Positions 44,680 to 57,049 of a DNA stretch of 64,000 nt are shown here, piece after piece. This stretch comes from an uncultured Alphaproteobacteria bacterium (GTDB lineage: Bacteria; Pseudomonadota; Alphaproteobacteria; HIMB59; GCA-002718135), in assembly GCA_902572735.1 (NCBI GenBank), contig CACGGX010000001.1, positions 62,001-126,000 of the forward strand, given 5' to 3'. Positions within the stretch are counted from its first letter, which is position 1. Every line of letters starts with the position of its first letter. A program made the position numbers and the translations under genes. Under the pieces are notes generated by a model. That model was not told the origin of the DNA. It did no database searches and saw only the letters and a program-made list of their open reading frames with translations.

Positions 44680-45231
44680 TTATCTGGGCTCCCAATGCTT
44701 AAGACATCGGGGTTCATAAATATTTGCTGCGCCCACTTGAGTCCTTTCTCCGCCTACAGTTTTTCTATAAGTTTTGGTTGCCTCAACTCCACAAACATTA
44801 CAAAAACCATATATTTTAACAATCTTATCTGATAAACCCAGAAGCATTGAAGATGTTTCCCAAGGTTTTCCTCTTGAATCTTGATCAAGACCAGCACAAA
44901 CAACGTCTATTCCTTTATTCAATAAACTCTCAACATTTTTTAGGGTTTCGTGTGTATCCATAAATTGGATTTCATCCAGAAAAACCATATCGACATATTT
45001 TTTATTAAAATTAAATTTAGTTAATGTCGTTTCCCAATTATTCATTGCATAACATTCGTGACTAAGATCATTGTGAGTTATAATTTTCTCATTAGAGTAT
45101 CTATTATCAATACTAGGTTTAATAACTATAATTTTTTTATTTTGGTGCTTTGCCCAAAGAATTCTTTTTAATAATTCACTTGTTTTGCCTGCAAACATTG
45201 CACCAACGATAGTTTCAAGATTACCTCGCAT
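44680..45231 (-). CDS. tdk: Thymidine kinase
   Basis: ETIVGAMFAGKTSELLKRI, VFLDEIQFMD, CAGLDQDSRGKPWE, CNVCG. Confidence 0.96.
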   Translation of the reverse strand: MRGNLETIVGAMFAGKTSELLKRILWAKHQNKKIIVIKPSIDNRYSNEKIITHNDLSHECYAMNNWETTLTKFNFNKKYVDMVFLDEIQFMDTHETLKNVESLLNKGIDVVCAGLDQDSRGKPWETSSMLLGLSDKIVKIYGFCNVCGVEATKTYRKTVGGERTQVGAANIYEPRCLKHWEPR

Positions 45232-45274
45232 AACTCAATATATTTTATTTTTATTTTTTATTATATAACTAATT

Positions 45275-46582
45275 TTGATAAATTATGAATTATTTATAAT
45301 AATGATAAAGGGTGAAAAAGTAAGATTTGATATTCATAATATACTATTTTCAATTTATAAATTAAATCTAACTTTAAATAATAACTTTATAAAAAAAATT
45401 ATTAATAGGCAAAAAAGAGAAGATATTGCTTTATTGCATAGTGTAACGTTAAACTCTATGAGATATCATTTACACTGTCTTAAGATAATAGATAAATATA
45501 TCAAAAAAAAAATTAGAGATCATGAAAAAATATTATTAATAAGCGCCATTACTCAAATTGTTTTTTTAGAATTTAAAGAATATGCCGTTATAAATTGCTC
45601 TGTAGAAATAGCTAAAAAATTAAAATTATATTCTGGACTTATTAATGCTTGTTTGAAAAATATAGCTAAAGATAAAATTGAGTTAAAAAAAATAAATATA
45701 AATTTTGATAATTTTCCATCATGGTTTCAAAAAGAAACTAATTATTTTTCTGATAATGAAAAAAGTCAATTTTTAAAATATTTTCACAATGAACCAAATA
45801 TTCATATAGTATTTAAAGATGAAAATAAATTGGAGAATTTCGAAGAAAAATTAATTAAAACATCAAAAGTATCAGGGTTTTTGTTGAATAAAAAAGATAT
45901 TACAAAAAAAAAATCTTTTGCTAGAGGTGATTGGTGGGTTCAAGATTTTAGCTCTTTTTTTCCATTACATAATTTTCTAGAAAAAAATAAAAATAAAAAA
46001 TTTCTTGATGCTTGTGCTGCTCCTGGTGGAAAAGCATTTCAGCTTCTTTCTAAAAATCTTAGTGTTACTCTAAATGATAAAAGTAGAGCGAGAATTGAAA
46101 TCCTTAAATCTAATTTAAAACGTTTAAAATATAATCCTCAAATATTAAACAAGGACTTTACAAAATTTAGTGAAGTAGAAAAATACGATTGTATTATAAT
46201 TGATGCTCCTTGCTCATCTGTAGGAACAATAAGGAAAAATCCAGAAATACTATTTAAAAAAAAAGGACCAAATTTTAAGGAGCTAAATTTTTTACAGAAA
46301 AATATGCTAGATAAAGCATCAGTTTTAGTAAATCAGAATGGATGCATAATATATATGGCTTGTTCTTTTTTTAAAAATGAAACTATCGATCAAATAAACA
46401 CTTTTCTCAAAAAAAATAGTAATTTCTTACTTTTAAATTTTAAATTAATTAAAGAAAACATTAACTACTCTAAACTTATAAAAGAAAACTTCATGATAAC
46501 CTTACCTGACAATATATTGAATAACAGTACAGATGGATATTTTGCAGCATACTTAAAGAAAAAAGACAATGATAGTATTTAG
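45275..46582 (+). CDS. rsmB: 16S rRNA (cytosine-967-C5)-methyltransferase-like
   Basis: NusB-like N-terminus and FLDACAAPGGKAFQLL...IDAPCSSVGTIRKNPEILF; start may be 45302. Confidence 0.88.
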   Translation: MINYELFIIMIKGEKVRFDIHNILFSIYKLNLTLNNNFIKKIINRQKREDIALLHSVTLNSMRYHLHCLKIIDKYIKKKIRDHEKILLISAITQIVFLEFKEYAVINCSVEIAKKLKLYSGLINACLKNIAKDKIELKKININFDNFPSWFQKETNYFSDNEKSQFLKYFHNEPNIHIVFKDENKLENFEEKLIKTSKVSGFLLNKKDITKKKSFARGDWWVQDFSSFFPLHNFLEKNKNKKFLDACAAPGGKAFQLLSKNLSVTLNDKSRARIEILKSNLKRLKYNPQILNKDFTKFSEVEKYDCIIIDAPCSSVGTIRKNPEILFKKKGPNFKELNFLQKNMLDKASVLVNQNGCIIYMACSFFKNETIDQINTFLKKNSNFLLLNFKLIKENINYSKLIKENFMITLPDNILNNSTDGYFAAYLKKKDNDSI

Positions 46583-48098
46583 AAAGATAATATTAATATT
46601 TATAGTTTTAAAATTTAGATCAATAAAAAACTTATCCTATCTTGATCTTAATTTTAGAAAAATAGATTTTACTAATTACAAGCTGATAAAATCATTTATC
46701 TTTAAAAACAATTTTTATTTGAATAAAAATAAAAATATTCATAGTTTTGATTTTTTAAATTTCTCTAATAAACTTGGAGGAAAAATAGGAATAAATTTAT
46801 CTAAAAATTCAATTTTTGGGTGGTTTAAATTTTATAGAAATAAATTAGGCTTCCCTTGGTCTGAAGATTTATCATCTAAAAGATTAGTTAATCTTTTGTA
46901 TAATTATGAATACATAAATTCTTCAGCATCTTTAAGTGATAAGAAAAAACTAGATTTAATTATTTATTTTCATATCCAAAGAATATTATTTGATTTTAAT
47001 TACAAAAAAATAACAGAAATTACATCATTTGATTTAATTGCATATTTATTATCATGCTCAATTATAAAGAAAATTAATAGAAAAAATATTGCGTATGTTA
47101 AATTTATTGTAGAAAATCAGATTGACAAACTAGGAATGCATAAAAGTTATAATATACTAGAGCATTCTAAATTTATAAATAATCTTAATGAAATAAAAAA
47201 TATTTTACTTTTTTTTAAGTTTAGGGAATCAAAAATATTTGATGAAGTAATTTTAAAAATGACATCAATCTTAAACGAGTACTTTCACACAGATGGCACA
47301 ATACCATTATTTAATGGATCAAATAATATTTATACAAAAAGTGTATATGAGTCTTTAAATAAAGATCATTATTTAAAAAAAAGAAAATTTTTAAATGTAG
47401 AAAATGGAATTGCTTTTTATTCAGATAAAAATAAGAGGATTTTTTTTGATGTAGTTCAGCCAAATAAAGATATGACAAGTACTAACTTAAGCGCTGGAAC
47501 TTTATCAATTGAAGTAAGTGGTTTTGGGGAAAAAATACTTTCTAATTGTGGCAGTACAGAAAGTTTTGGTAAAAATCCAGAATATTTAAGATATAGCGCT
47601 GCACACTCAACAATAATTTTACAGAATACTAATATAAGTGAGATAAAAGAAGGTAATCCACATATAAAATTTCCACAATCTGTAGTCTTTAGAAAAGAAA
47701 CAAATAATAAACAAGAGATATTTGAAGGATCGCATAATGGATACTTAAAAAAATTTAATAAAATAATTAAAAGAAAACTAATTATAAATAAAAATATAGA
47801 TAAAATAGAAGGTGAGGACAGTTTAATATCTTACAAAGAAAGCAATAATAAATTAATTTATCACATTAGATTCCACTTAGTGGACGAGATGACACTTAAT
47901 TTTACAAATAATAAGAAAAATATAATTTTGAAAACAAAAAAAAATAATATTTGGTTGTTTAAAAGTAATACAGAATTAATAATCGAGGACAGCATATTGG
48001 TTGATAATAATCTTACAAAACCTACTAAACAAATTGTTATTAAAGGTATATTGTCAGACAAGAAAATTTTAGAAAAATGGTCGTTAGAAAAAATTTAA
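46569..48098 (+). CDS. Heparinase II/III family protein
   Basis: GTLSIEVSGFGEKILSNCGSTESFGKNPEYLRYSAAHSTIIL; located between rsmB and purH. Confidence 0.82.
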   Translation: MIVFRKIILIFIVLKFRSIKNLSYLDLNFRKIDFTNYKLIKSFIFKNNFYLNKNKNIHSFDFLNFSNKLGGKIGINLSKNSIFGWFKFYRNKLGFPWSEDLSSKRLVNLLYNYEYINSSASLSDKKKLDLIIYFHIQRILFDFNYKKITEITSFDLIAYLLSCSIIKKINRKNIAYVKFIVENQIDKLGMHKSYNILEHSKFINNLNEIKNILLFFKFRESKIFDEVILKMTSILNEYFHTDGTIPLFNGSNNIYTKSVYESLNKDHYLKKRKFLNVENGIAFYSDKNKRIFFDVVQPNKDMTSTNLSAGTLSIEVSGFGEKILSNCGSTESFGKNPEYLRYSAAHSTIILQNTNISEIKEGNPHIKFPQSVVFRKETNNKQEIFEGSHNGYLKKFNKIIKRKLIINKNIDKIEGEDSLISYKESNNKLIYHIRFHLVDEMTLNFTNNKKNIILKTKKNNIWLFKSNTELIIEDSILVDNNLTKPTKQIVIKGILSDKKILEKWSLEKI

Positions 48099-48676
48099 AA
48101 AATAAATTTGCATTAATATCAGTGTTTAATAAGAACAATTTAAATTATCTTTGTACTAATTTAAATAAACAAGGATATAGGTTTATATCTAGTGGTGCTA
48201 CAGGTAATAAAATACGAGATATGGGATTTAAATGCCAAGATATTTCAAAAATAACTAAATTTAAAGAAATGTTTGAGGGAAGAGTTAAGACGCTAAACCC
48301 ATTAATATATAGCTCTATACTTTATAAAAGAGAAAATAAATTTCATATAAAAGATTTTCTATCATTAAAAATACCTGAAATAGATATAGTTGTTGTCAAC
48401 TTGTATCCTTTCAAAAAATATTCAAAAGAAAAAAATTATGATCAAATAATTGAGATGATAGATATAGGGGGGCCAAGTCTATTAAGAGCTGCAGGAAAAA
48501 ATTATAAATATATCACTGCAATATTGAATACAAAAGACTATAAAAAATTGATTCAAAATTTAAAAAAAAATAATGGAGTGACTGATCTAAATTTTAGAAA
48601 AAAAATGGCAATTAAGGTTTTTAAAGAAACTTCTAATTATGATAAAGTTATTTCTAATTGGTTGGATGAAAACTAA
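48077..48676 (+). CDS. purH: PurH N-terminal part (IMP cyclohydrolase/MGS domain), split gene
   Basis: FALISVFNKNNLNYL...RFISSGATGNKIRD..FKEMFEGRVKTLNPLI...VVNLYPFKKY...IDIGGPSLLRAAGKNYKYI. Confidence 0.9.
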   Translation: MVVRKNLKNKFALISVFNKNNLNYLCTNLNKQGYRFISSGATGNKIRDMGFKCQDISKITKFKEMFEGRVKTLNPLIYSSILYKRENKFHIKDFLSLKIPEIDIVVVNLYPFKKYSKEKNYDQIIEMIDIGGPSLLRAAGKNYKYITAILNTKDYKKLIQNLKKNNGVTDLNFRKKMAIKVFKETSNYDKVISNWLDEN

Positions 48677-49583
48677 GATTAATAAAATTAAATTAAGATA
48701 TGGAGAAAACCCAAATCAAAGTGCGTATCTAATTAATAATGTAAAAAAATCTATTTTTAGTTATCAAATTAGTGGAAAAAAAATAAGTTATAATAATTTA
48801 ATTGATGTTGATAGTGGTTTGAGGTGTTTGGAAGAGTTCAAGGAACCTACTTCGATAATTATAAAACACACAAATCCTTGTGGTGTAGCTTCTTCAAAAA
48901 ATATTGAAAGTGCTTTTGTTAAGTCTTTTCAAAGTGATCCTAAGAGCGCTTTTGGAGGGATAATTTTTTTAAATAGAAAAGTGAGCTATAGTCTAGCGAA
49001 AATAATAATTAAAAGTTTTTTTGAGATGGTTGTTGCAAGTAGTTTTGAAGAAGATGCTATAAAAATATTAAAAAAGAAAAGAAATTTAATTTTATTAAAA
49101 ATACCAAGTTCAAAAAAGAAGATTATAGAATATAAATCAACCCTTTTTGGTGATCTTTATCAGACTAAAGATGTTACACCAATTAACAAAAAATTCTTGA
49201 AGTTAGTCTCAAAAAAAGCTGGTTCAACTAAATCAATATCTGACTTAATTTTTTCTTTAAAAGTTGCAAAACATTTAAAATCAAATGCTGTTGTGTTATC
49301 TAGAAATAAACAAACTTTAGGTTTAGGTCATGGTCAAACAAATAGAGTTGATGCATTAAATTTTGCGATAAAAAATATGAATAAGCACTTTAAAAAAAAA
49401 TTCTTCGTTTGTGCATCAGATGGTTTTTTTCCATTTACTGATAGTATAAAATTATTAGAGAAAAATGGATGTAATGTTGTTGCTCAACCAAGTGGATCAA
49501 TTAATGATAAAAAAATAATATCCTTTTCTATTAAAAAAAATATATCTCTATATTTTATTAAAAATAGACTTTTTAAACATTGA
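48666..49583 (+). CDS. purH: PurH C-terminal part (AICAR transformylase domain), split gene
   Basis: LRYGENPNQSAYL, IIKHTNPCGVAS, SDPKSAFGGII, ASDGFFPFTDSI, C-terminal RLFKH; ATG at 48666 overlaps upstream stop (track start 48639). Confidence 0.9.
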   Translation: MKTKINKIKLRYGENPNQSAYLINNVKKSIFSYQISGKKISYNNLIDVDSGLRCLEEFKEPTSIIIKHTNPCGVASSKNIESAFVKSFQSDPKSAFGGIIFLNRKVSYSLAKIIIKSFFEMVVASSFEEDAIKILKKKRNLILLKIPSSKKKIIEYKSTLFGDLYQTKDVTPINKKFLKLVSKKAGSTKSISDLIFSLKVAKHLKSNAVVLSRNKQTLGLGHGQTNRVDALNFAIKNMNKHFKKKFFVCASDGFFPFTDSIKLLEKNGCNVVAQPSGSINDKKIISFSIKKNISLYFIKNRLFKH

Positions 49584-49806
49584 ATAAAAAAACTAAGATA
49601 CCAAAATATATTAAAATTCTAATAGAAAAATATCCTAAAATTTTTTCAGGTAGAAAAAATTTTCAATATCATAATGATAGAATTCTCAAATCAATTAAAA
49701 TAATAAAAAAATATTTTAATAAAAATAATTCATTAAAAAATGATTAATTGTTTAAGTTATTTCTTGTTTTGTTTACTGAAAGTATATTTTGATATAGATA
49801 CAAAAT

Positions 49807-50400
49807 ATGAGCAAACCTAATCTTCTTTTTCCAACCCCTGTTTGGACTTTACAATTAGATAATTACAAAACTATAAATGAAAAAATGTATACTTATATTA
49901 AAGGAAATCAGATTAAAGATCAAAAAGGAATAACTAAGAGTAATGTGAAGGGATGGCATTCTCAAAACTTTGATTTAAAAGAAAATGAACCTAAAGACTT
50001 TATAAATTTCATTTCTCCATCTATAGAAAAAGTAATGACAGACATGAATTGGGAAAAAGAAAAACAATCTGTTAAAATAACTAATATGTGGTCTATTATA
50101 AACACAGGGGGTTCGACAAATTCAAGACATCAGCACGGTAACAGCAGTATTAGTGGAGCATACTATGTGAGAGCACCAAAAAACTGCGGTGATATTGTAT
50201 TTTACGATCCAAGACCTGCTGCTGTTTTTAGTTATCCAACGGCAATAAGTTCTAATTTTCTTAATGCACAAGTTAATGGAATAAGTCCTAAAGAAGGTGG
50301 ATTAATATTATTTCCAAGTTATGTTGATCACTCAGTAAATGAAAATTTATCTAAAAATGAAAGAATAGTTATAAGTTTCAATATTACAATACAAGCATAA
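49807..50400 (+). CDS. Putative 2OG-Fe(II) oxygenase (TIGR02466-like)
   Basis: LFPTPVWTLQLDN...MWSIINTGGSTNSRHQHGNSSISGAYYV..GDIVFYDPR...GGLILFPSYVDHSVNEN. Confidence 0.85.
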   Translation: MSKPNLLFPTPVWTLQLDNYKTINEKMYTYIKGNQIKDQKGITKSNVKGWHSQNFDLKENEPKDFINFISPSIEKVMTDMNWEKEKQSVKITNMWSIINTGGSTNSRHQHGNSSISGAYYVRAPKNCGDIVFYDPRPAAVFSYPTAISSNFLNAQVNGISPKEGGLILFPSYVDHSVNENLSKNERIVISFNITIQA

Positions 50401-50408
50401 ACATATAG

Positions 50409-51173
50409 TTATTTAGAGTTATTTTTTGAAATACTTTCCCAAGCTTCTCCTGATTCAATTTCTTTGAGTGTCCATTGACTGTAAGCTAGATTATTAAAAA
50501 TATTATAATTTATTTTAGGATTTTCAATATTTTGAATTTTACCAATATGATTCAAACTTATTTCTGTAAAATATGCTGGGACTCCTTTTGACATTGCTAT
50601 AAAACCAGCAGTAGATTGTAAACTTACAAAAGCCCAGGCATCTCTAAGTAAATTTTCTAAAGGTTCTTTAGAAAACTTATTATGAATAATAATTTTTCTG
50701 TCAGTATATTTTTTTACTTTATTAATAGTGTCTTCAGTCCAATTAGGTGAATTGTATAATTTTTTCATTGTTTCTGATGGCTCAGAAAGAATTATATTTT
50801 TTCCAGATTTATTTTGATCTAAAATTTCAATATTAAGTTTTTTCAATCTATCGTTTGGAAAGTTGCCTCTACCATCATGTATAAAATTATTAAAAACTAT
50901 TCTAAAATAGCCATCTAAATTTATTACATTCGTTCTATTATTATTAAACAATCTTTTTGATTGATTAAAATATCCATGATCCATATAAAAAAAATTTTTT
51001 ACTTTTTTAATAATTTCTAAAGTTCCCCTTAAGACCCCATAAGTTGCAATTGTTTTGTCATACTCTCTAAAATTTTTTACGTGACATAGAAGTGAATCTG
51101 AGCCTCTTGCAAAATTATAGCACAGTGTTCTATTAATTATATGATCAGTATAAATAACGATAGGTTTTTCCAT
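50409..51173 (-). CDS. Putative capsule/surface polysaccharide biosynthesis-type protein
   Basis: DHGYFNQSKR...AWAFVSLQSTAGFIAMSKGVPAYF, resembling capsule-biosynthesis-type retaining glycosyltransferases. Confidence 0.45.
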   Translation of the reverse strand: MEKPIVIYTDHIINRTLCYNFARGSDSLLCHVKNFREYDKTIATYGVLRGTLEIIKKVKNFFYMDHGYFNQSKRLFNNNRTNVINLDGYFRIVFNNFIHDGRGNFPNDRLKKLNIEILDQNKSGKNIILSEPSETMKKLYNSPNWTEDTINKVKKYTDRKIIIHNKFSKEPLENLLRDAWAFVSLQSTAGFIAMSKGVPAYFTEISLNHIGKIQNIENPKINYNIFNNLAYSQWTLKEIESGEAWESISKNNSK

Positions 51174-51252
51174 TAGTCAATATTATAAACTAATAAGTTA
51201 CTTTATAAATATAATCATTTCTGTTATTTAGTCATAATAATATATAAGTTAT

Positions 51253-52014
51253 ATGTACAGTGTTTTACAAAATAAAAAAAATATCAAATTTAAGTTTGAA
51301 AAATTCCCTTATTTAATTATTGATGATGCTTTACCTGCTGACCTTTATAAGAAATTAAGTAATAGTTTTCCTAAATATGAAAAAATAATTGCGGGAAATG
51401 AATATAAAGAAAACTTTGCTTACAGATATAATGCTTTTAATTCACTTAGAGATAACGAAATAAGTTCGGACTGGAAAGAGTTTATAAAATTCCATACAAG
51501 TTATGAATTTTTGGAAGAATTTTATAGTATTTTTGGAGACTCAATTAAAAAAATTTATAATGTTGAAAAAGAGAGATTATTTAAAAAAGATAATATTGGT
51601 GTGAGATTTGACGGCAAAAATCACTTCAATCTAGACTGCCAATTTGTCATAAATACTCCTACAAGTGGTGAAACAAAAGTGATTGAGCCACATTTAGATA
51701 ATCCTGTAGAATTTTATGCAGCACTTTTATATATGAAAGATCATAATGATAACTCAGAGGGTGGAAATTTAACTACATATGACTTTAAAGGTAATCCAAG
51801 TTTTTATGGAAAGTCTAGAGTTAGAGAAGAAAAAGTGAATTTAATAGAAGAGATTGAATATAAACAAAATAGATTGGTGATGTTTTTAAACTCACCATAT
51901 TCAATTCACGGGGTAACAAAAAGAACAAAAACAAATTTCTATAGAAAATATATCAACATAATAGGTGAGTTTAATTTTGAATTATTCAACTATAGAAATT
52001 TTCTAGAGAAGTAA
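51253..52014 (+). CDS. 2OG-Fe(II) oxygenase superfamily protein (prolyl-4-hydroxylase-like)
   Basis: EPHLDNPVEFYAALLYMKDHNDNSEGGNLTTYDF (HxD) and FLNSPYSIHGVT..R.KYINIIG (distal His). Confidence 0.75.
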   Translation: MYSVLQNKKNIKFKFEKFPYLIIDDALPADLYKKLSNSFPKYEKIIAGNEYKENFAYRYNAFNSLRDNEISSDWKEFIKFHTSYEFLEEFYSIFGDSIKKIYNVEKERLFKKDNIGVRFDGKNHFNLDCQFVINTPTSGETKVIEPHLDNPVEFYAALLYMKDHNDNSEGGNLTTYDFKGNPSFYGKSRVREEKVNLIEEIEYKQNRLVMFLNSPYSIHGVTKRTKTNFYRKYINIIGEFNFELFNYRNFLEK

Positions 52015-52018
52015 AAAT

Positions 52019-52867
52019 TTATTTTTTTCTTTTATTATTATCTGAAACTTGGTTTTCCGCATTTGCACTTCCCAGATTTTGTGAATTATAATCAGTTTTA
52101 AAGTTTGAAATATCATTCAGATATTTTCCTTGAAGAGGAATTTTGAAAATTTCATCAGAAAGTTTTTGAGTTATAACAACTAATAGAATATTTTTACCTA
52201 TTTTATCTTTTGCAATTTCAATCATTTTTTGAAATTTGGAATTATTTTTGTAAGGCTTTATTTGCTCAAATAATACAGAAAAGTTATTTCCATCTAATTT
52301 TAGTTCTGCTCCATCTCTATTTGCAAGCGATATCTTGATAATTTTATAATTATTAGATGCCGCTAAGTCAGCAAAAAAAATTGGATTAAAATTATAAAAA
52401 CCGTGATTAATCCAATCAATAAATGGAAGGATATTAAGCATTATGCCATTAACCTTAGTTAGATTATGAAAATTTAGAAACAAGCTATATTGGTTAAATA
52501 CATGCTCACCCGTGCCATTGTTTATGACTAAATCATATTTCTTATCAAAATTATATGCTTCATAAATATTTTTATTTAAATCAAATTGAAAGCTTTCATA
52601 TGCACCATTTATATCAATTGATTTATAGTCTTCAAATCCAATAGAAGTAAAATAATCTTTTGTAGTAAATATTTCTTTATCTAATAAATTTTTTAAAAAT
52701 TTTTTTTGGTAAACATTTAACAGTTTATTTTGATTTAATAGATTTAATATAAATTTACTGTTAATAGAAGCTGTTTGTGAACCTAAATCAATTGCTTTGG
52801 GATTGTCATTCAAAATTATGTTTTTACATTCAAGTACATTAAAAGCAGCTACAGGATTAAAGGTCAT
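52019..52867 (-). CDS. Putative SAM-dependent methyltransferase-like protein
   Basis: KAIDLGSQT...YDLVINNGTGEHVFNQYSLFLNFHNLTKVNGIMLNILPF. Confidence 0.6.
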   Translation of the reverse strand: MTFNPVAAFNVLECKNIILNDNPKAIDLGSQTASINSKFILNLLNQNKLLNVYQKKFLKNLLDKEIFTTKDYFTSIGFEDYKSIDINGAYESFQFDLNKNIYEAYNFDKKYDLVINNGTGEHVFNQYSLFLNFHNLTKVNGIMLNILPFIDWINHGFYNFNPIFFADLAASNNYKIIKISLANRDGAELKLDGNNFSVLFEQIKPYKNNSKFQKMIEIAKDKIGKNILLVVITQKLSDEIFKIPLQGKYLNDISNFKTDYNSQNLGSANAENQVSDNNKRKK

Positions 52868-52940
52868 TATATTTTATTTATTTAATATTTATTAATTACA
52901 TTTATATCTATAGTTAAATTGATATAATAAAGTAAGGAAG

Positions 52941-53516
52941 ATGGATAATTATTCTAAATATTATTATGAAGTCATTGAGAAGTATAAGTCGTTTCATAAA
53001 AATGGAGTCAAAAACCAACCTGGGTTTAGCACTTTTTTGGGCTATTCTTTATCCAAGTGGGTAATTAAAATTAAGGATATAATAAAAATTAATAACTGTA
53101 ATTCAATCATCGATTTTGGTTGTGGTAAGGGATTTTTATACAAAAATAAATTCCAAATAGAAGGAGTTGAATACAAAAATTTATCTGAATTTTGGCAAAT
53201 TCGAAATATACACTTATATGATCCAGGTGTTGAAGAATATTCAATATATCCAAATAAGAAGTATGATGGTGTAATCTGTACTGATGTTATAGAACATATT
53301 CCTGAAGTTGATGTAATAGAATTTATTGATGAATTATTTAATCTTTCAAATAAATTTATTTTTTTTGTAATTGCTACGATTCCAGCTTCAAAATACTTTG
53401 AAGATGGTAGAAATATTCATTTATGTCTGAAATCACAAAAAGAATGGTCAGAAATATTTTTGACTTTTAAAAAAAAGTACCCCAAAATTAACCAGTACGT
53501 TTACTTTAACGATTAA
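52941..53516 (+). CDS. SAM-dependent methyltransferase-like protein (paralog of 22981..23640)
   Basis: SIIDFGCGKGFLYKNKF...YDGVICTDVIEHIPEVDVIEFIDELFNLSNKFIFF. Confidence 0.78.
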   Translation: MDNYSKYYYEVIEKYKSFHKNGVKNQPGFSTFLGYSLSKWVIKIKDIIKINNCNSIIDFGCGKGFLYKNKFQIEGVEYKNLSEFWQIRNIHLYDPGVEEYSIYPNKKYDGVICTDVIEHIPEVDVIEFIDELFNLSNKFIFFVIATIPASKYFEDGRNIHLCLKSQKEWSEIFLTFKKKYPKINQYVYFND

Positions 53517-53546
53517 TGTTAAAAGTTTTTTTAAATTTAATATAAA

Positions 53547-55304
53547 ATGTGTGGAATATTTGGAATAACAGAAAAGAACCCAAAACTAATAAAAAGTATA
53601 ATTGATAAGTGTTCACACAGAGGACCTGATGGGAATTCTATTTGGTCAAATGAAAGTGTTACTCTTGGCCACAACCTATTATCCATTACTTCTACTCCAA
53701 AAGATGGTGTCCAACCATTTACAACTCAAAAAGGAAATATTTTAACATACAATGGTGAAATTTTTAATTACAACAATTTATTAAAAAAATTTAAAGATAA
53801 ATTTTTACCAAAAACCTCATGTGATACTGAATTACTTGGTTGGTTATTAGATAATTTTAGTTATGAAGAAGTTATATGTAATTTATTAGATTCAATGCAT
53901 GCATTTGTTTTTTATAATAAAAAAAATAATGAAATAATATTATCGAGAGATCATGCAGGCATAAAACCTTTATATTTTTCTGAAGTAAAAAATGGAATTA
54001 TTTTTTCTTCAGAAATTAAAGGTTTAATTGAAATTTTACCTAATGCAAATAAAATTGATAGAATTGGATTAGCTTGTACAAGCTTAATTGGAGCAAATGT
54101 TCTAAGACAAACAATATTTACTGGTGTCTATAAAGTTCTTCCAGGAGAATCAATAATCTACAATATTGATACCAAAAGAGTTAAATACAAATTTAGAAAT
54201 CTTGTTAAACCAACTTCAAGTAAAGCCTATGATGTTGATGAATTTTATGAACAATCAATGATTGCAATTAATAATTCGACGCTAGGTATGAGAAGTTTTG
54301 GTATGTTTTTGTCTGGAGGCCTAGATTCATCTTTAGTTGCACATGGTTTAAAAAATAAACTAGGATCACTAAATTCATTTACAACATTAATGAAGCCAAA
54401 TGTAATTGATAAAGAAGATTATAATAGTGATGCAAATGTGGCCAAGAAATTTGCTGAGGAAATTCAATTGAATCATAATGAAATAACAATAACACCTGAA
54501 ACATTTGTTGAAAATTGGAACGATTCAATAAGATTTATTGAAGAGCCTAGATATAATTGGTGCTTACCTATGTATTTTTTTACTAATAAAGTTCTTTCTA
54601 CAAATAATACTATTGTTACTATGGCAGGAGATATAGGAGATGAAATTTTTGGAGGTTATAATAAATACTTAAAAATGTATCACTTAGAAAAAAAACCAAA
54701 AAATTGGAATGATTTTATTAAAATGTGGATGGTAAAATTCAGAGCTCCCATATTACTCAATATGAAATTTAGTTTTGATGATTTACACTCGCTATTGATT
54801 CAAACCTTACCTGAAGACATATGGAACCCAGAAGATATTCCTAACTCAGCAATGGCTCTGGATTGCATAACCACTGTCTCAGAAGATTTTTTTTCAAGAA
54901 ATGATAGGTTTGGTATGGCATTTTCAATGGAAGGAAGGTTCCCACTTTCATCAAAAAATTTTATGCAATATTGTTTAGATGTCAATTCTGCATATAAATT
55001 TGGTTCAAAGTTAAATGAAACAAAATATATTGTTAAAGAAGCTTATAAAAATAAACTTCCTAAATACATTCTAGAAAAGAGTAAAACAGGATGGTCCGCC
55101 CCAATAATGAACTGGTTAGATAGTTATGAACCCCTAAGAAAAAAATTTTTGAATGATTTAAGCAAAGATGATGGGATAAAAGAAATCATATCAGAAGATA
55201 ATTATTTAGATAATTTAAAAATTGGAAAAGAATTTTCAGGGAAGAGGAAAATTATCTCTTGGATGTTAAGATCCTGGGCTCAAGAATTTAATATGTTTCT
55301 ATGA
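53547..55304 (+). CDS. asnB: Glutamine-dependent asparagine synthase-like amidotransferase
   Basis: MCGIFGI, SHRGPDG, LTYNGEIFNY, LSRDHAGIKPLYF, MFLSGGLDSSLVAHGL, EGRFPLSSKNFMQY. Confidence 0.9.
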   Translation: MCGIFGITEKNPKLIKSIIDKCSHRGPDGNSIWSNESVTLGHNLLSITSTPKDGVQPFTTQKGNILTYNGEIFNYNNLLKKFKDKFLPKTSCDTELLGWLLDNFSYEEVICNLLDSMHAFVFYNKKNNEIILSRDHAGIKPLYFSEVKNGIIFSSEIKGLIEILPNANKIDRIGLACTSLIGANVLRQTIFTGVYKVLPGESIIYNIDTKRVKYKFRNLVKPTSSKAYDVDEFYEQSMIAINNSTLGMRSFGMFLSGGLDSSLVAHGLKNKLGSLNSFTTLMKPNVIDKEDYNSDANVAKKFAEEIQLNHNEITITPETFVENWNDSIRFIEEPRYNWCLPMYFFTNKVLSTNNTIVTMAGDIGDEIFGGYNKYLKMYHLEKKPKNWNDFIKMWMVKFRAPILLNMKFSFDDLHSLLIQTLPEDIWNPEDIPNSAMALDCITTVSEDFFSRNDRFGMAFSMEGRFPLSSKNFMQYCLDVNSAYKFGSKLNETKYIVKEAYKNKLPKYILEKSKTGWSAPIMNWLDSYEPLRKKFLNDLSKDDGIKEIISEDNYLDNLKIGKEFSGKRKIISWMLRSWAQEFNMFL

Positions 55305-55370
55305 AAATAAAAGGTTGATTATTTAAAAATTTTAAAACAAAACTATTACTTTAAATATGTTAGTATTTTA

Positions 55371-55841
55371 TTAATTACTCACATTTATTAAGACTTCATA
55401 ATTGATAATTATATTGCTAATTTTCCAGTTAATCCCATTAAATTTGAAAATTACAACAAATGGAATATCTTGATGCCTTACAGATAATTTAAAGTGAATA
55501 GGGCTTATAAAAAAAAAGTAGTCTATTAATTTAAATTTATCTCTTAATCTTTTTATTTTTATAAGAAAATTTTCCTTTTCTTCTTCATTTACAGTTACAT
55601 TTTTGATTTCTTGAGTTATTTCCAAATTACTTTCTTCATATTTAGTTGAAATTTCAGATTGATATATTTGAAAACTATAATCTCCAAAGTTTTTTAAATA
55701 TTTTTCAAAATAAATATTTATTTCATTACTATTTTCATAAAAGTAAAGCATTATATTTGGGGTACTAAAATCTGATGAAACAGAATCAATTGTCTTTAAA
55801 AAAATTTTTAAAAGAAAAGTATCACTAAAAGTTCCTGACAT
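55371..55841 (-). pseudogene. DUF2939-like protein; ORF appears 5'-truncated by a homopolymer frameshift
   Basis: Frame stays open upstream of 55841 to about 56065; in-frame extension FTFLIIFSYLTTTFFISFKNISNYVAGGKEEQLKKYIL...; ATG at 56073 is one nt out of frame across an A9 run. Confidence 0.5.
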
Positions 55842-56178
55842 TTGAAAATTATCATCATCAAATTTAAACTCTTTAGAAAAAGCATTTAAATTTTTTATAA
55901 AATATTCTTCTAATTCAAGGTAAAGGTTTTTCTTTAAATTTTTTTCTAAAATATATTTTTTTAATTGTTCTTCTTTTCCACCGGCTACATAATTTGAGAT
56001 ATTTTTAAAACTAATAAAAAAGGTGGTAGTTAGATAAGAGAAAATAATTAAAAAGGTGAAAAAAAAATCTCATTTTTTTTTATAACATTATTTATAAATA
56101 AAAAAAAACTAAAATAGTGAAGCAAATCTAAATAACAACATCGAGATTTTTATTGAAAAACAAAAGATACATTTAAGT

Positions 56179-56210
56179 TTTGGAGCGGGCGAAGGGATTC
56201 GAATTCTCGA
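56179..56210. repeat. Distal partial copy of tRNA-Gly 3' end (att-like direct repeat)
   Basis: TTTGGAGCGGGCGAAGGGATTCGAA TTCTCGA: 25 bp identical plus 2 mismatches plus 5 bp identical to 56973-57004. Confidence 0.88.
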
Positions 56211-56252
56211 CCCGCTTAAAGCATGCCTTATGGGGTCCCAAAAATTGAAAAA

Positions 56253-56274
56253 CTATATTGCAACTATATTGCAA
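56253..56274. repeat. 11-bp direct repeats CTATATTGCAA x2 (left inner arm)
   Basis: CTATATTGCAA CTATATTGCAA, 11-bp period. Confidence 0.85.
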
Positions 56275-56291
56275 ATTAAAATTTTATTATT

Positions 56292-56600
56292 CTAAAAACA
56301 GGTAAGAAATTTTCCTAACTGCTGACAAGTAACTGTCCTTTTTCTACTTGATGAAGTATCCCAATCTGATTGTTGTTTTTTTTCTAGTTCAAATCTTGCT
56401 AGATCAACATATTTTGTACAATCTATTTCTCTTGTTATTATTGCTTGTGCCATTGGATCTTTGTTTACATTTAATTTACCGGCAGTGAGATAGTTGACAC
56501 ATAAGTCCTTTTCATTAATGTTCATATATGCAGAGTAATGATTTGGTGTACATGAGATTATAAAAATTAATGCAAAAAAAATTGAAAATAAAATTTTCAT
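56292..56600 (-). CDS. Small predicted lipoprotein
   Basis: MKILFSIFFALIFIISCTPNHYS lipobox-like signal; five further Cys in the mature part. Confidence 0.65.
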   Translation of the reverse strand: MKILFSIFFALIFIISCTPNHYSAYMNINEKDLCVNYLTAGKLNVNKDPMAQAIITREIDCTKYVDLARFELEKKQQSDWDTSSSRKRTVTCQQLGKFLTCF

Positions 56601-56603
56601 AAA

Positions 56604-56888
56604 TTATTTTTTAACCCACTCAACGACTTTAAAAAGAGCATAACATAAAATAAATGAAATTATGTGTGAAAAAATAATAAATATAATTTCAAATAAACTT
56701 GATTTATTAAGTTCATCGAAAATCCAACTGTAACAAGTATAACTTTCGATTATAGAACATCCAAAGAAATATGTATTTTGGTTTAAAACAACAGATAGTG
56801 CTTTAACGAATTGTACAAAAAAAATTGGTAAGAAAATTATTCCACAAACTATTGCTAGTTTGTGAAGTTTATCATTTTGTATTCTCAT
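56604..56888 (-). CDS. Small membrane protein (2-3 TM)
   Basis: 94 aa with hydrophobic segments; directly upstream of the lipoprotein gene. Confidence 0.6.
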   Translation of the reverse strand: MRIQNDKLHKLAIVCGIIFLPIFFVQFVKALSVVLNQNTYFFGCSIIESYTCYSWIFDELNKSSLFEIIFIIFSHIISFILCYALFKVVEWVKK

Positions 56889-56907
56889 TAAACATTAATA
56901 CCAAAAA

Positions 56908-56940
56908 CTATATTGAAAGTATATTGCAACTATATTGCAA
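56908..56940. repeat. 11-bp direct repeats x3 (right inner arm): CTATATTGAAA, GTATATTGCAA, CTATATTGCAA
   Basis: Exact 11-bp phasing; 23-nt perfect match (56920-56942) with 56254-56276. Confidence 0.85.
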
Positions 56941-56974
56941 ATAGATTTTAAAATTTAAAGGTGGGATTGGGATT

Positions 56975-57049
56975 TGGAGCGGGCGAAGGGATTCGAACCC
57001 TCGACTTCAACCTTGGCAAGGTTGCGCTCTACCCCTGAGCTACGCCCGC
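56975..57049 (-). tRNA. tRNA-Gly(GCC), CCA encoded
   Basis: Reverse complement GCGGGCGTAGCTCAGGGGTAGAGCGCAACCTTGCCAAGGTTGAAGTCGAGGGTTCGAATCCCTTCGCCCGCTCCA: 7-bp acceptor, D-arm, anticodon loop TTGCCAA, T-arm. Confidence 0.97.

Follow-up and report, generated by a model that had tools for sequence, protein, structure and literature searches.

The window analysed here, a 64,000-nucleotide stretch of contig CACGGX010000001.1 from an uncultured alphaproteobacterium of the order HIMB59, carries at the 3' end of a tRNA-Gly(GCC) gene an element of about 0.8 kb that is probably an integrative cassette of the non-autonomous type, moved in trans by the tyrosine integrase of another element. The element is delimited by two 32-bp copies of the tRNA 3' end, which lie 794 bp apart in direct orientation and differ by two mismatches in the T-stem (TT versus CC; GG to AA on the tRNA strand). 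It contains two sizeable open reading frames (ORFs), neither of which encodes a recombinase (Table 1). This much had been recognised in an initial annotation of the DNA, whose coordinates and sequence for the repeat are correct, and whose description of an interval with two small ORFs and no recombinase is borne out by the ORF list and by profile scans, which revealed neither recombinase nor transfer genes inside the cassette. Phage genes were likewise absent from it in a PHROG scan of both ORFs, and the two proteins have no match in NCBIfam, PHROGs or PADLOC and none above the Pfam cut-off. What the initial annotation did not contain are tandem 11-bp direct repeats located directly interior to both cassette ends. 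This pair of tandem repeats has no second occurrence in the window's genome, a 1.3-Mb draft, at up to three mismatches.

The same annotation envisaged a single captured island, but the element is one of a family of 34 within a general cassette array. In a sample of 102 genomes of the genus, 83 tRNA-Gly loci were read outward from the tRNA and searched on both strands for a 23-bp core with at most two mismatches; all genomes are drafts, those with matches are mostly single-cell genomes, and repeat arrays are prone to assembly errors. The loci contain 102 extra core copies on the tRNA strand and none on the opposite strand, with at least one extra copy in 58 of the 83 genomes, and because of this strand bias the repeat cannot be attributed to chance. 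The core copies delimit tandem rows of cassettes with recurrent lengths and start sequences. Thus, relatives differ in gene content at the same chromosomal position, with direct repeats of the tRNA 3' end as cassette borders, and alternative cargo between the same repeats, a check suggested by the initial annotation, is present in most of them. Vertical conservation of both window ORFs at this position, which would have spoken against capture, was not observed, as other arrays yielded no DNA-level match to them. Among the closed units (n = 110), 96 are shorter than 3.3 kb and just 9 encode a full-length integrase; integrase-less units recur in many genomes at constant length. The tRNA-Gly spot therefore behaves like a natural gene-swapping dock.

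At the window-type proximal end, common to 34 cassettes in 17 genomes, the core is followed by roughly 35 bp of leader, the tandem 11-bp repeats and usually a start codon, while at the distal end tandem repeats are followed by one of three conserved tails and then by the core. Closed members of the family (n = 25) measure 559-1616 bp and usually contain one to three genes; the tRNA strand accounts for 16.3 kb of their coding sequence and the other strand for 2.7 kb. The spacing from core to repeats is 36-37 nt in 31 of 34 proximal ends and 68-69 nt in 13 of 14 distal ends, and repeat variants match better between the two ends of one cassette than across cassettes (p = 0.004, n = 15). A pattern search across 163 genomes of the order gave 42 hits, nearly all within these arrays, and none with the reversed pattern.

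Insertion at the tRNA end is supported by empty sites, by near-identical cassettes in diverged backgrounds and by core decay away from the tRNA. In two genomes (G011 and G067) the tRNA-Gly gene is directly joined to a flank from which, in G052, it is separated by a cassette row that includes four members of the window family; the identity of the flanks is 89-90% over approximately 580-590 bp. Further empty sites, for other cassettes, emerge from the comparison of G046 with G044, of G074 with G047, and of G056 and G082 with G055. The gene blh, which is adjacent to the window array and has matches in 107 of 151 relatives, provides a measure of background divergence. Some cassettes are 97-99.6% identical between genomes that share about 87-93% identity in blh, and part of them stand at different ranks in their arrays; cassette identity exceeds blh identity in 18 of 27 comparable pairs. 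Other cassettes in the same arrays have thus moved laterally. The cores are also fresher close to the tRNA: perfect copies make up 56 of 58 next to it versus 30 of 44 further out (p = 1e-4, shuffling within arrays), and a looser mismatch limit gives the same outward decay (p = 5e-5).

The ends of these units share a structure that links them to integrases. At period 11, a matching tandem repeat pair near each end was found in 46 of 68 dereplicated units, with all families represented, as compared to 20 of 204 mispaired ends; the same test at periods 8-10 and 12-15 gave 0 of 68. The score threshold was set after viewing examples, but the contrast between periods is independent of it. Integrase genes of the clade begin directly behind tandem repeats of this kind at several tRNAs. 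The order of tRNA, tandem 11-bp repeat and integrase start was seen at tRNA-Arg and, by eye, at tRNA-Leu, tRNA-Ser and tRNA-Gln (L138, L144, L146, L147, L150, L151 and others). Moreover, integrase-bearing and integrase-less members have common ends in two other families. In the TGTGACA family, elements with an integrase (5-14 kb) and elements without one (2-3 kb) occupy the same tRNA and carry the same repeats, and the CTCCGACA family at tRNA-Gly comprises one integrase-bearing and three integrase-less units. It is mainly this mixture of members in both families that suggests the window element to be the non-autonomous partner of an integrase. Two candidate helpers were rejected: in G081 the integrase in front of a W2 end has different repeats of its own, and in G003 a W3 end belongs to a 7.6-kb unit with different repeats on the integrase side. 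Viral contigs contained neither a relative of either window cargo protein nor the W1 end. The repeat sequence itself was present in four of them, in one common context without core or tail, and was judged a chance occurrence.

According to the proposed explanation, each end of such a cassette holds a tRNA-derived core site and, interior to it, tandem 11-bp sites of presumed arm type; the cassette lacks a recombinase, and its short cargo genes read away from the tRNA. A tyrosine integrase from another element may bind the TKCAATRTAST repeats and excise the cassette as a small circle. Circles would then integrate into the 3' end of the tRNA-Gly gene, which would thereby be restored, and new cassettes would enter beside the tRNA and shift older ones outward, which would produce the array. 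The window cassette would be mobilised in trans in this manner and would still be mobile. Several points weigh against this explanation. The empty-site check proposed by the initial annotation succeeded for array flanks as described above, but neither an empty site for exactly the window cassette nor an excised circle was found. An integrase with window-family repeats was not found among the fetched integrase loci and the 163 genomes of the order. In 9 of the 27 comparable pairs, several of which compare families A and B, the cassettes are not more alike than blh. Finally, it is only from their anatomy that the 11-bp repeats are taken as putative integrase arm sites.

As a rule, the first gene of a cassette has its start codon 23 nt past the repeats, and its product carries a signal peptide, behind which the mature parts of these proteins are unrelated to one another; the window cassette, with its membrane protein, is an exception. 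Mean pairwise DNA identity of first genes is 0.45-0.68 from -45 nt to +60 nt around the start codon, and further downstream it is about 0.33. Signal-peptide genes taken as controls from the same genomes reach 0.32-0.34 upstream and 0.64, 0.46, 0.43 and 0.33 over the first 60 nt. By this comparison the leader is clearly conserved, whereas the signal peptide is only modestly above expectation, and signal-peptide swapping was dismissed as a special feature of the system for this reason. A Pfam scan of ten cargo proteins placed a MORN-repeat protein and an alpha/beta hydrolase above the cut-offs and a SHOCT domain just at its cut-off; a methyltransferase match lay just below, and six proteins were without match. 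Anti-phage cargo was also considered and set aside, as four proteins gave no PADLOC match.

Alternatively, the window element could be a static remnant, that is, an integrase-bearing element that lost its interior by deletion and left 0.8 kb of immobile DNA. The missing recombinase would fit this scenario, as would the visible decay of outer core copies and of some array cassettes. Truncation does occur in these arrays: F-type units (G043, G076, G087, G066, G031 and G078) retain only an N-terminal integrase fragment of 82-130 amino acids, presumably the arm-binding part, and have lost the catalytic domain. However, the core, the 11-bp repeats, their spacing and both ORFs of the window cassette are intact, and integrase-less units recur at constant length in many genomes although so few units have a full integrase. 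A remnant is therefore unlikely, and among the options listed in the initial annotation a minimal tRNA-targeted cassette and a satellite mobilised in trans fit best, whereas plain decay fits less well. Chance or an assembly artefact can practically be dismissed despite the draft state of the genomes and the poor assembly of repeated arrays, since the strand control is unequivocal and the same cassettes, with the same junctions, are present in independent genomes.

Homologous recombination between tRNA ends and conserved leaders might also move cassettes, in which case the 11-bp repeats would be promoter or regulatory elements. The conservation of the leader does extend into the signal-peptide codons, and related cargo is found with different ends: families C and D (G062 and G079) share homologous cargo, sulfotransferase-like by eye, and families A and B (G042 and G069) a homologous protein of 86-97 amino acids, as if cassette ends had been exchanged. 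In G140, from the other family of the order, a window-type cassette has collapsed, with its proximal repeats fused to the distal tail and its cargo gone (L191 / L168), consistent with deletion between repeats. This mechanism is nevertheless quite improbable, because cassette borders lie at the core, matching repeats are also present at the non-coding distal end and solely at period 11, and identity in the core covers a short stretch of about 25 bp. Even less probable is a resident tyrosine recombinase that shuffles cassettes like an integron integrase. The candidate, a conserved protein of 352-365 amino acids (G000:C4, L156:3667-4725), is encoded about once per genome in most genomes of the genus and is similar to Xer/integron-type models, although only weakly. 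Many genomes have no other PF00589 match, and it may be their sole Xer-like enzyme. Its gene, however, is unlinked to the array and not preceded by an 11-bp tandem repeat, and the repeats differ by family, which suggests several enzymes rather than one. Non-autonomous cassettes served by integrases of other elements thus remain the preferred explanation.

Table 1. Features of the window cassette and its surroundings (positions refer to the 64,000-nucleotide window).
Feature	Position	Strand	Details or basis
tRNA-Gly(GCC) gene	56975..57049	minus	ARAGORN; 3' end is the proximal core site
Proximal copy of tRNA 3' end (attachment core, intact tRNA side)	56973..57004	minus	
Three tandem 11-bp direct repeats (proximal arm-like sites)	56907..56939	plus	ACTATATTGCA type; TGCAATATAGT on tRNA strand; family alignment, spacing
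Cargo ORF 1, small membrane protein, 94 aa	56604..56888	minus	First gene behind repeats
Cargo ORF 2, small lipoprotein, 102 aa	56292..56600	minus	Lipobox-like IISC by eye
Two tandem 11-bp direct repeats (distal arm-like sites)	56252..56273	plus	
Conserved distal tail of window family, W1 type	56211..56251	minus	TTTTTCAATTTTTGGGACCCCATAAGGCATGCTTTAAGCGGG..; same tail in other genomes
Distal copy of tRNA 3' end (attachment core, element side)	56179..56210	minus	GAA replacing GGG
Possible older decayed cassette, ORF 55371-55841	55334..56178	minus	Decay inferred from sequence by eye

The possible older cassette is situated between the distal core and an asparagine-synthase-like gene, and the signal-peptide start of its ORF is probably frameshifted, as judged by eye. 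It is missing in G090, which shares 97% identity with the window over positions 45002-55333 and whose array, between the point equivalent to 55333 and tRNA-Gly, consists of cassettes other than those of the window.

Integrons are defined by folded attC sites and IntI. The ends of the window cassette are instead a tRNA end and tandem direct repeats, and both PF00589 recombinases of the window's genome are located on other contigs, so that no IntI-type integrase lies beside the array. Integron arrays and clusters of attC sites lacking integrases (CALINs) are nonetheless similar in that they form rows of small integrase-less cassettes, which can be mobilised in trans and are added at one end (PMC11389934). 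Additive islands anchored at tRNAs and containing repeated tRNA ends are known from Ca. Actinomarinales (PMC7771536) and as flexible genomic island 2 (fGI-2) of Methylophilaceae (PMC10872708). These islands resemble the arrays described here in their variable content of largely unknown function and in their occurrence in streamlined aquatic bacteria, but tandem 11-bp repeats at both ends, an integrase-less family and integrase partners with the same ends are not described in the parts of these reports considered here. In Dehalococcoides, tandem islands at ssrA are likewise delimited by repeats of an RNA-gene 3' end, and for those without an integration module, 15 in number, it has been proposed that they are cis-mobilizable elements and move by accretion (PMC3146451). 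They differ in their larger size, the serine recombinase DsiB and the tmRNA target, and the sections consulted describe no 11-bp arm repeats. Tycheposons are also tRNA-associated integrative elements of marine bacteria with a tyrosine recombinase; in the account excerpted here they span 4-200 kb and carry their own recombinase (PMC10872708), in contrast to the 0.8-kb window cassette. Within the HIMB59/AEGEAN-169 order, which comprises two families with streamlined genomes, a phosphate island described for HIMB59 has borders without tRNAs (PMC10734472). No description of such a cassette system was found in the literature covered, outside of which most subscription journals lie. Thus, tRNA-anchored additive islands and integrase-less islands flanked by attachment sites were already known, and the new aspects are how small the cassettes are, that their 11-bp repeats match between both ends in many families, and that integrase-bearing and integrase-less partners share one tRNA.

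A broader reading is conceivable, although we lean slightly away from it: the tRNA gene might be the entry port of a distributed, integron-like system, in which changing integrases act in trans across a marine bacterial lineage and shuffle many recombinase-less cassettes of less than 2 kb. Every cassette family would have a particular pair of 11-bp arm sites at both ends, and the leaders would often provide new secreted proteins with a start codon and a signal peptide. The combination of a tRNA core with matching period-11 tandem repeats at both ends offers a defined signature by which such cassettes could be sought in other places. The proposed explanation provides a concrete and testable mechanism for the small additive islands of streamlined ocean bacteria, based on minimal cassettes that have complete-looking recombination ends and would need only a passing integrase. 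This would help to explain how very small genomes continue to swap surface and secreted proteins.
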